NCBI RefSeq assembly: GCF_000422545.1
Contig: NZ_AULZ01000009.1
Span: 62,001 to 126,000, forward strand
DNA: 64,000 nucleotides
Reading direction: 5' to 3'
DNA from: Desulfocurvibacter africanus subsp. africanus DSM 2603
Lineage (GTDB): Bacteria; Desulfobacterota; Desulfovibrionia; Desulfovibrionales; Desulfovibrionaceae
In this document: positions 29,639 to 32,681 of the stretch, piece by piece
Layout: every line of letters starts with the position of its first letter
How positions within the stretch are numbered: the stretch's first letter is position 1
Made by a program: the position numbers and the translations under genes
The notes under the pieces: model-generated
The model's database searches: none
What the model was told of the DNA's origin: nothing
What the model saw: only the letters and a program-made list of their open reading frames with translations

Positions 29639-29914
29639 ATGAACAAAAGCGAACTGATCAAGACGCTTGCCGAAGACAAGGATATTCATGTCGATGAGGC
29701 CTCCAAAATCGTCAATGCCTTCGTGGACTCCATCAAGGACTCCTTGCTCCAAGGCGAGCGGGTGGAGATTCGCGGTTTCGGCAGTTTCAAGATTAAGGAA
29801 TATAAAGGCTATACAGGACGCAACCCCAAGACCGGCGACATCGTCGATGTTGAGCCCAAGCGGCTGCCCTTCTTTCGACCTGGTAAGGAATTGAAGGAGT
29901 TCCTGAATAGCTGA
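29639..29914 (+). CDS. HU/IHF family DNA-binding protein
   Basis: This 91-aa protein is typical in size and has the helical start MNKSELIKTLAEDKD, GERVEIRGFGSFKIKEY and the DNA-binding arm GRNPKTGDIVDVEPKRLPFFRPGK. The arm sequence is between HU and IHF types; the subunit type cannot be decided from sequence. It starts after a 127-bp gap and ends one base before the UshA-like selenoprotein gene. Confidence 0.92.
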   Translation: MNKSELIKTLAEDKDIHVDEASKIVNAFVDSIKDSLLQGERVEIRGFGSFKIKEYKGYTGRNPKTGDIVDVEPKRLPFFRPGKELKEFLNS

Positions 29915-29915
29915 T

Positions 29916-30809
29916 ATGCCACGCTTCATTGCGACGATTGTCCTGGCTTTCCTTCTTTTACCGATCCTGATGAACAATGCCTGGGCCGCTCCCGTCCTGG
30001 GCATTGTTTTCTCTGGCAATGAGTATGGCGAGTATCGCCCATGTCCCACCTGAGGCGACAAAACCATTGGCGGCTTGGCCCGGAGGGCTACCGCACTTCA
30101 GGATTATCGCGCGGCAGCCTCAGGCTACCCGCTTTTTCTTCTCGCAAGCGGCCACTCTTTTCTGCCTCTGGATGGGCCGGCGCCGGATGCGCGCCAGACA
30201 GCCGCCTTGTCCAAGGTCTATTCCCTTTTGGCTTACGATATCGGGCTGCTGACGCCGGCAGAGGCCGCGCACCTTCGAACGCTGAATGTTCCACCGCCCA
30301 CCAACTGGGTCGTGCAGAGTTCCCAGATCGAAACAGTCCTGCGCAGCAAAGGCTCCATTACTCTGGGCATTGTCATCCTGCCCGCGCTTGCCAAGGAAGC
30401 GCAGGTGAATCCGCCGGAGGCGCTACGCGAAGAGATTGCCGCAGCAGCCAACCGCCTGCGCGAGAAGGCCGATCTTGTCGTGGCGTTGAGCCCATGGGGA
30501 ATACGAGCGGAGCAAAACTTGCTGGAGACGTCTCCGCCGAGTTTCGATTTGCTCTTGGGGACAGGCCAGGGCATCGGTAATACAGGTCGGCTCATGAACA
30601 AGGATGCCCTTTTGTGGATGCGGGCTTATGATAAGGGCAAGGCCTTGCAGCGCGTCGATATTTTCACTTTACCCGAAAAGGGCGCGAGCAGCTTCGCCTG
30701 GCAGCAGGGTAAAAGCATTTCCTGGACCACTATTCCATTAAGTGAAAAGATATATTCTGATCCTGGCATACTTGAGATTTTCAATTCACTAGACAAGACC
30801 AAGAAATAA
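29916..30809 (+). CDS. UshA-like selenoprotein (Sec at codon 46, in-frame UGA)
   Basis: From ATG 29916 the frame encodes a signal peptide (MPRFIATIVLAFLLLPI... ending AWA), then VLGIVFSGNEYGEYRPCPT, an in-frame TGA at 30051-30053, and then GDKTIGGLARRATAL and the rest without another stop: 296 sense codons plus UGA. In UshA/5'-nucleotidase-like relatives I know, a Cys pair precedes a GGLxRRAT motif, and UGA sits at the second Cys position (CPTU). A hairpin compatible with a bacterial SECIS follows at 30070-30094. The protein is likely periplasmic, with unknown substrate. A simple nonsense mutation is possible but less likely, given the conserved sequence kept on both sides. Confidence 0.82.
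30070..30094 (+). promoter_or_regulatory. Candidate bacterial SECIS hairpin in the UshA-like gene
   Basis: GCGG pairs with CCGC and GCCC with GGGC, leaving a GGA apical loop at 30082-30084. The loop begins 28 nt after the UGA and opens with G, inside the usual bacterial SECIS window (about 16-37 nt, G among the first two loop bases). Confidence 0.7.
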
Positions 30810-30848: not shown

Positions 30849-31724
30849 ATGTTTCGTGGCGCGTTCACGGCTTTGGTCACTCCGTTCAAGAACGATTCAA
30901 TCGACGAAGATGCCTACCGGGCTCTCGTGGAATGGCAACTTGAGCAGGGCATTCACGGCCTCGTACCCTGCGGCACCACAGGCGAATCCGCCACGCTGTC
31001 CCATGCCGAGCATAAACGGGTCATCTCCATCTGCGTGGATCAGGTCAAGGGCCGTGTGCCCGTCCTGGCTGGAGCTGGCTCGAACAATACGAGCGAGGCC
31101 ATTGAGCTGACTCGCTTCGCGAAGGAATCCAAAGCAGACGGGGCCCTGCTCATCACGCCCTACTACAATAAGCCTACCCAGGAAGGCCTTATCGCGCATT
31201 TCAAGGCTATTGCGGCTGAGGTCTCCATGCCTTTCATCGTCTACAACGTCCCAGGCCGGACCGCGACGAACCTGCTCCCTGAGACCCTGGCGGAGATGCG
31301 CCGAACAATATCCGAAGTCATCGGCGTCAAAGAAGCAACCGCCGACTTGACTCAGATATCCAAAGTCCTCGAATTGTGCGGCAGGGACTTCCTGGTCCTC
31401 TCGGGCGACGACTTCACTGTGCTGCCGACGCTGGCCATTGGCGGCGTGGGCGCTATCTCGGTTGTGTCGAACATCAAGCCAGCCGCCATGTCCGGCCTCG
31501 TCAACGCCTTCAATCAAGGTGATCTGGACAAGGCCAGGGATCTGCACTTTCAGCTAGCTCCCCTGTGCAGGGCCATGTTCATGCGCACCAACCCAATTCC
31601 GGTCAAAGCCGCCCTATACCTTATGGGCCGTCTCAGTCCGGAGCTGCGTTTGCCGCTCCTGCGCATGGATGCCAAGCTGGAATCGGAACTCAAGTCAGTG
31701 CTCGCTACGGATGGCCTAGTCTAG
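30849..31724 (+). CDS. dapA: 4-hydroxy-tetrahydrodipicolinate synthase
   Basis: This 291-aa barrel enzyme condenses pyruvate and aspartate semialdehyde in lysine and diaminopimelate synthesis. CGTTGESATL (Thr43-Thr44), YNVPGRTATNL (Tyr132) and the Schiff-base Lys161 in VIGVKEATADL are intact, as is GGVGAISVVSN. A GAGGAGG ribosome site precedes the ATG. Its TAG stop (31722-31724) is the edge of repeat copy D. Confidence 0.96.
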   Translation: MFRGAFTALVTPFKNDSIDEDAYRALVEWQLEQGIHGLVPCGTTGESATLSHAEHKRVISICVDQVKGRVPVLAGAGSNNTSEAIELTRFAKESKADGALLITPYYNKPTQEGLIAHFKAIAAEVSMPFIVYNVPGRTATNLLPETLAEMRRTISEVIGVKEATADLTQISKVLELCGRDFLVLSGDDFTVLPTLAIGGVGAISVVSNIKPAAMSGLVNAFNQGDLDKARDLHFQLAPLCRAMFMRTNPIPVKAALYLMGRLSPELRLPLLRMDAKLESELKSVLATDGLV

Positions 31725-32099: not shown

Positions 32100-32423
32100 T
32101 ATCAACATGGCTCAGCATCCTTACAGCAATAAGCCTCGAAGGTGTCCGGTTGCTCTACCTTCTTGCCCTTCTTGGCCTGGCTCGAGTTTTCAGCATTGGC
32201 GAGCAGCTTTCTGGCTTTGTCCCGACACTTGCGGGCTTTCTTAAGCTAACGTCAGCGTACGCGCCAAGGGCGAGCAGCTTTTCCTTACCCCGAAGCGATA
32301 CTTCAAACGCCACAACTTACCCCCTTCGTGGGTAACAAGCAGGTACATACCCCAACTGTCAGACAGCTTGCGGGGCTTGGCTTCGGGCTTTGCGTTGCGA
32401 ATGGACGTATCGGATAGTGGCAT
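32100..32423 (-). pseudogene. Decayed P4-type tyrosine integrase, N-terminal fragment
   Basis: From ATG 32423 the minus strand reads MPLSDTSIRNAKPEAKPRKL and GGKLWRLKYRFG, the typical N-terminal domain of P4/IntS-type integrases. A first frame change near 32290 leads to GKEKLLALGAYADVSL, and a second near 32245 leads to KCRDKARKLLANAENSSQAKKGKK, in the order of the intact family. The catalytic domain is absent. It lies just past the 3' end of tRNA-Arg on the same strand, the usual position for such integrases. Confidence 0.85.
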
Positions 32424-32604
32424 GGCGGGGGGCTTCAGCGCGTGGGGTACTTTCGGCGCGTTTTCGCGTTCCGCAGTTCGCCCATTCCCAGCCATACCCT
32501 CGGATGCCAACGGAGGATGCAGGACATACTCGGACTATTTCTAGCCGGTTTGCCCTTGAATTTCTGTCTGTTTAGACCTTTTCGGTTTTAGCTGGATTCA
32601 ATTG

Positions 32605-32681
32605 TGGTGGCCCCGACAGGATTCGAACCTGTGGCCTTCCGCTTAGGAGGCGGACGCTCTATCCACCTGAGCTACGGGGCC
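32605..32681 (-). tRNA. tRNA-Arg (anticodon CCT)
   Basis: The 77-nt minus-strand sequence folds as a cloverleaf: acceptor GGCCCCG/CGGGGCC, D-arm GCTCAGGTGGATAGAGC, anticodon arm CCGCCTCCTAAGCGG (loop CTCCTAA, anticodon CCT) and T-arm CAGGTTCGAATCCTG. The 3' CCA is encoded. It reads AGG codons. The integrase remnant lies directly downstream. Confidence 0.95.

Follow-up and report, generated by a model that had tools for sequence, protein, structure and literature searches.

Results

Gene content of the locus

In a 64,000-nt window of the genome of Desulfocurvibacter africanus subsp. africanus DSM 2603 (contig NZ_AULZ01000009.1, positions 62,001 to 126,000 of the forward strand; "the window" denotes this whole stretch), a gene of the UshA-like (seleno)protein family 2 lies between a gene for an HU DNA-binding protein and a dapA-like gene (Table 1). 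The sole internal stop of its frame is the TGA of codon 46, and the frame is otherwise open to the TAA. When the frame is translated through the TGA, the protein has the order MPRFIATIVLAFLLLPILMNNAWA-AP...YRPCPT-TGA-GDKTIGGLARRAT..., in which MPRFIATIVLAFLLLPILMNNAWA resembles an N-terminal signal peptide of the cleavable type. The list of open reading frames gives only the part from the internal TTG, without the signal peptide and the redox motif.

The sequence-only reading of this DNA had described a periplasmic UshA-like selenoprotein that is truncated by standard annotation, and this overall description was right. Translation confirmed to the base that an in-frame UGA splits the frame, and the list of open reading frames bears out the warning that annotation from an internal TTG would drop the signal peptide and the redox motif. 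The proposal that UGA replaces a Cys in a CPxC-like motif agrees with Cys43-Pro-Thr-Sec46 and with the Sec or Cys of the relatives, and the kinship with UshA-like proteins was upheld by the profile score given below.

Table 1. Features of the selenoprotein locus, in window coordinates.
Feature	Position	Strand	Details and basis
HU DNA-binding protein gene	29639..29914	+	PF00216; 1-base gap upstream; near 57/68 family copies
UshA-like (seleno)protein family 2 gene	29916..30809	+	297 codons including Sec46; stop TAA 30807-30809; translation with TGA as U and NF049981 score
Putative signal peptide, residues 1-24	29916..29987	+	Cleavage likely after AWA; judged by eye; helix 2-19 in the model
CxxU redox motif Cys43-Pro-Thr-Sec46	30042..30053	+	Translation; conserved in alignment
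Putative Sec UGA codon	30051..30053	+	TGA 59/68, Cys 9/68 copies, window gene counted
Bacterial SECIS-like hairpin	30070..30094	+	GGA apical loop 30082-30084; upper stem 30076-30081 with 30085-30090; fold, comparative tests, literature criteria
Truncated 244-aa frame, internal TTG start	30075..30809	+	Output of standard ORF finder
dapA-like gene	30849..31724	+	PF00701; downstream; near 47/68 family copies

Family membership

In a profile search, the read-through protein scored 280.4 bits against NF049981, "UshA-like (seleno)protein family 2", for which the curated cut-off is 140, and the match spans positions 1-261 of the 262 in the profile and residues 28-289 of the protein. Its score against NF041198 was 46.7 bits, far under the curated cut-off of 275, so it does not belong to that family, and a profile search of the source genome gave no NF041198 match over the cut-off. 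No Pfam family came over its cut-off for the read-through protein, a PDB sequence search with the single protein returned nothing at E <= 1, and the family was matched neither in plasmids nor in viral contigs. According to the available text of a 2026 review (PMC13188914), NF049981 is listed with the motif CxxU and is credited to GenBank annotation only; Cys43-Pro-Thr-Sec46 has this form. The window gene is an additional member of a selenoprotein family that is already named and listed, and for that reason the find is not new. In the available text of the literature on NF049981 and UshA-like selenoproteins, no function is given for family 2, and among titles retrieved for metallophosphoesterase, pseudoenzyme and selenocysteine none was on the subject.

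Conservation of codon 46

The survey set consisted of 99 genomes, including the window's own; the family was found at E <= 0.001 in 64 of them and over the cut-off in 63. Seventy matches were taken, namely all 69 over the cut-off and G081 (21 bits). G081 and G010x, which have TGA at the expected codon and a frame that is broken afterwards, were left out of the counts, which left 68 full copies, window gene included, spread over 63 genomes of the order. These copies are related, and counts among them are not independent. Aligned codon 46 is TGA in 59 of the 68 copies, a Cys codon in 9 and any other codon in none; the Sec or Cys that the sequence-only reading expected at this place is thus found in every full copy. 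In addition, the reading of TGA as another amino acid was rejected because Cys is the sole other residue at the codon.

Alignment A1 has 54 sequences, the window protein plus 53 from the remaining 67 copies, with U shown as C; Cys43 is present in 52 and Sec/Cys46 in all 54. In L090 (G001; PEAGU) and L121 (G061; PIKAU), the Sec is kept and the partner Cys is gone. As 2 of 54 sequences have Sec without Cys43, the Cys-Sec pair is evidently not indispensable.

Of the Cys copies, those of G057 and G024 stand beside a Sec copy, those of G002, G043 and G044 lie elsewhere in a genome that also has a Sec copy, and those of G008, G027, G048 and G055 occupy the usual place by themselves. The Cys and Sec copies of G057 and G024 adjoin (L054 and L055), and the Cys copy of G024 retains the hairpin stem, which may reflect a recent Sec-to-Cys change or an exchange with the neighbour copy.

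A separate search of genome contigs, made with a pattern 3' of the UGA, yielded 16 loci, 7 of which are from genomes already in the 68-copy count, and TGA was present in 16 of 16. Thirteen of these loci are in bins assigned to Desulfovibrio or to Desulfo- families or orders, two in Proteobacteria and one in Salidesulfovibrio brasiliensis JCM 12178. At the S. brasiliensis locus (L135:3872-4165), the TGA and the hairpin are present and the frame stops after 98 residues in the draft record, through either true decay or a sequencing error.

The hairpin

The window hairpin, GCGG-CU-UGGCCC-GGA-GGGCUA-CCGC, has a folding energy of -13.5 kcal/mol and begins 17 nt after the TGA; the fold of this segment matches the GGA-loop hairpin that the sequence-only reading had placed at this distance. 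According to the available text of PMC13188914, a bacterial SECIS has an apical loop of 3-9 nt with a G in the first two places, a stem of 4-16 bp, a distance of 16-37 nt from the UGA and a minimum free energy of at most -7.5 kcal/mol. With its GGA loop, 6-bp upper stem, distance of 28 nt and energy of -13.5 kcal/mol, the window hairpin lies within these limits. By itself, the hairpin is not exceptional. Compared with dinucleotide shuffles, 30070-30094 had a z of -1.70 (14 of 200 shuffles as good) and a 60-nt stretch of the gene a z of -0.85 (37 of 200); compared with synonymous shuffles, a 51-nt stretch had a z of -0.04.

The hairpin stands above chance because it is conserved in relatives. 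A stem of at least 5 continuous pairs with a GG[C/A] loop occurs in 50 of the 59 Sec copies compared with 1 of the 9 Cys copies (Fisher p 2.6e-5), and 1000 synonymous shuffles using each gene's own codons gave the stem in 9.0 +/- 2.7 of the 59, with a maximum of 20. The distance from the UGA to the loop is 28 nt in 58 of the 59 Sec copies and 34 nt in the remaining one. The stem of at least 5 pairs is missing in 9 of the 59, some of which fold in another register. Moreover, within the GGLARRA segment of the Sec copies, the first Arg is encoded by CGG in 52 of 59 and the second by CGG or AGG in 50 of 59; in the rest of these genes, the commonest Arg codon is CGC (259 of 734), with CGG at 190 of 734. 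The energy of the 51-nt stretch compared with synonymous shuffles had a mean z of -0.53 over the 59 Sec copies (negative in 49, below -1 in 15).

Covariation across relatives, which the sequence-only reading had proposed as a check of the hairpin, gave modest support. In a DNA alignment of 58 of the 59 Sec copies, from which G032 was excluded because of an insertion between the UGA and the hairpin, the covariation score was 0.153 compared with 0.142 in shuffles (35 of 500 as high), paired cells amounted to 85.7% compared with 84.7% (42 of 500 as high), and there were 12 further pair types compared with 9.0 (0 of 500 as high). The support is modest because the stem overlies the strongly conserved codons of GGLARRA. 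We consider the synonymous-codon and Sec-versus-Cys comparisons more telling than the covariation counts.

Selenocysteine machinery

Absence of the Sec machinery, which the sequence-only reading had named as evidence against itself, is not the situation in the source genome: selA (620.6 bits), selB (390.4), selD (333.3) and tRNA-Sec (86.1) are all over their cut-offs. Among 14 control genomes, matches over the cut-off numbered 1 for SelA, 2 for SelB, 2 for SelD and 5 for tRNA-Sec. Four weaker tRNA-Sec matches in the source genome (49-53 bits) are probably other tRNAs. The selD of the source genome (G000:C2:245108-246025, L138) has one in-frame TGA, and its product is probably a selenoprotein too.

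In genomes at least 90% complete, selA was found in 48 of 49 with a Sec copy compared with 1 of 3 with a Cys copy only (Fisher p 0.007), and in all genomes, in 52 of 59 compared with 1 of 4 (p 0.011). A selA match is missing from 7 of the 59 genomes with a Sec copy, and 6 of these 7 are less than 90% complete.

Fold and metal site

An AlphaFold2 model was built from alignment A5, in which the window protein is joined by 15 genome-contig loci; the sixteenth, L135, was excluded for its short frame of 98 residues. The model has a pLDDT of 88.9 and a pTM of 0.85, and its least certain part is the loop of residues 41-50 (mean pLDDT 56). The predicted model has the metallophosphoesterase fold of UshA and 5'-nucleotidase: it matches SoxB with Z 22.4 (rmsd 3.4, 248 aligned residues) and E. 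coli 5'-nucleotidase with Z 19.9. A Foldseek search agreed, with 2ush_B as its best match (E 1.9e-11, TM 0.60 by query length), and the two structure comparisons together gave fold matches to UshA, CD73 and SoxB. The protein has 297 aa, and the part of the approximately 520-aa E. coli 5'-nucleotidase chains to which the model aligns is confined to about residues 31-359. Against 5'-nucleotidases and SoxB, HMMER profile alignments gave weak matches (E 9e-5 to 2e-3) that are nonetheless in register and pair GGLARRAT with GGVARRA, SPWG with SHxG, GSGPG with SGHTH and LLTPAE with ALGNHE.

In UshA and 5'-nucleotidase, the dimetal ligands are, we presume, D, H, D, N, H, H and H/Q, and the C-terminal domain is substrate-binding. 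According to the weak HMMER mapping, the seven ligand positions are occupied in the window protein by N35, Y37, H80, P114, P193, Q218 and I220; by the same mapping, none of the seven ligands is kept in 42 of 54 sequences, and at most two are kept in any. The C-terminal substrate-binding domain is absent from the 297-aa window protein. Conserved instead in alignment A1 are Ser192 (51 of 54), Trp194 (50), Gly195 (53) and Glu199 (52), as well as Gly217 (54), Trp234 (52) and Arg236 (53). The hydrolytic centre of the ancestral phosphoesterase appears to have been lost.

Neighbourhood and spread

The selenoprotein gene ends 39 bases before the dapA-like gene. A gene order of GGDEF, ParA/MinD-like, HU, selenoprotein gene, a gap gene in some genomes, and dapA is widely kept, with ParA/MinD near 58 and GGDEF near 56 of the 68 copies (some loci are cut by contig ends). 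The gap gene precedes dapA in many relatives, and in the one sequence tested it encodes a DAP epimerase (PF01678). Elsewhere in the window, an 89-aa frame at 32241-32510(-) has an integrase arm-type DNA-binding domain (PF13356, 37.2 bits) and lies beside a tRNA gene at 32608-32681(-); it is apparently a 5' remnant of an integrase whose mobile element has been lost.

Of 247 genomes drawn from across the phylum, 102 had a match at E <= 0.001 and only 3, all of the window's own family, were over the cut-off; among the genomes searched, the cut-off was passed only within the window's own order. Many of the weaker phylum matches, among the matches listed, have one in-frame TGA. Fourteen weaker matches from the top of the list were read; 2 lack the UGA, and in the other 12 it forms part of PCPxU, PCGU or a similar motif ahead of GGLARR-like motifs. 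Because 12 of 14 weaker relatives have the UGA, the narrow NF049981 family seems to sit inside a wider UGA-bearing superfamily. Among the UGA-bearing phylum relatives below the cut-off (L144-L155), some have DAGD or DSGD, which resembles part of the metal site and suggests that the site was lost stepwise.

Discussion

We are highly confident of the explanation as a whole, namely that the window gene encodes an exported NF049981 selenoprotein with a hairpin-directed Sec, a phosphoesterase-like fold and a Cys-Sec redox role. Judged from the sequence comparisons, the UGA at 30051 is almost certainly decoded as selenocysteine through SelB, Sec-tRNA and the hairpin at 30070-30094. In this process, SelB carrying Sec-tRNA would bind the hairpin, and the ribosome would decode the UGA as selenocysteine. 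The protein would then be exported and its signal peptide removed, and the mature protein is predicted to fold like the N-terminal metallophosphoesterase-like domain of the UshA/SoxB group, with Cys43 and Sec46 expected in the loop after the first strand, near the former first metal ligands.

Two readings dispense with selenocysteine. According to the first, a codon that once specified Cys has become TGA by nonsense mutation in a pseudogene, or reads as TGA through a sequencing error; a single TGA in an otherwise open frame, together with the 9 copies of 68 that encode Cys here, is what it would lead one to expect. However, 59 of the 68 copies, from many genera, have their TGA at this very position, TAA and TAG do not occur there, and a matching hairpin follows, which makes this reading extraordinarily improbable. 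The other takes the UGA as a true stop followed by a second protein that starts at TTG 30075, where the ORF finder does report a 244-aa frame. However, the conserved residues before and across the UGA fall in one family model (residues 28-289), the TTG lies inside both the conserved GGLARRAT and the hairpin, and strand 28-33 of the predicted model, ahead of the UGA, is part of the fold; we consider this reading highly improbable as well. Both were rejected because the codon is conserved as TGA or Cys only.

A third reading accepts the selenoprotein and differs in function: the protein would be a working phosphoesterase or nucleotidase, with the Sec near the metal site. The fold matches to UshA, CD73 and SoxB and the name UshA-like that these families bear speak for it. 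However, the seven dimetal ligand positions are mostly replaced, with 0 of 7 kept in 42 of 54 sequences, the C-terminal substrate domain is absent, and the model covers only the N-terminal part of 5'-nucleotidases. We therefore regard this reading as unlikely. Because the dimetal ligands are replaced, nucleotide hydrolysis is most likely absent, and the protein probably serves in periplasmic Cys-Sec redox chemistry, with a phosphoesterase fold as its scaffold, rather than as a nucleotidase.

As far as the motif can tell, it is reasonably likely that Cys43-Sec46 works as a periplasmic selenol/thiol redox couple. Electrons would pass between a selenenylsulfide/selenol couple made up of Cys43 and Sec46 and a partner in the periplasm, either a thiol or a reactive sulfur compound. 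According to the available text of a 2008 paper (PMC2398784), UshA-like selenoproteins of the CxU kind are an exception to the families with conserved Cys-based redox motifs, and this exception counts against the redox reading. More tentatively, we suggest a replacement of the active site, in which the two-metal centre was lost and a Cys-x-x-Sec centre gained in the same loop; the product might be a periplasmic selenol oxidoreductase of the Desulfovibrio group without a thioredoxin fold, perhaps acting on sulfane sulfur or persulfides. Such substrates would parallel those of the fold relative SoxB, which acts on carrier-bound sulfur.

The locus is a clean example of how ordinary ORF calling truncates a gene at its Sec codon, with the loss of the signal peptide and the redox motif. 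Moreover, the evidence for the SECIS from comparison of relatives, together with the erasure of the metal site, makes "UshA-like" a testable claim. As used by the sequence-only reading, the term holds for fold and ancestry and fails for the UshA metal ligands and C-terminal domain, both of which are missing. What may be novel is a phosphoesterase fold turned redox protein rather than the family itself.

Among known systems, NF049981, with its CxxU motif, is the one from which no difference of the window protein was found. NF041198 (PCGU) shares the N-terminal motif region with the window protein and differs in having CxU instead of CxxU and a profile of 519 positions, approximately twice the length. 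UshA, the 5'-nucleotidases and SoxB (COG0737 type) share the fold of the N-terminal metallophosphoesterase domain, with Z 20-22 over approximately 250 residues; compared with them, the window protein has its ligands replaced, its C-terminal domain gone and a CxxU motif added.
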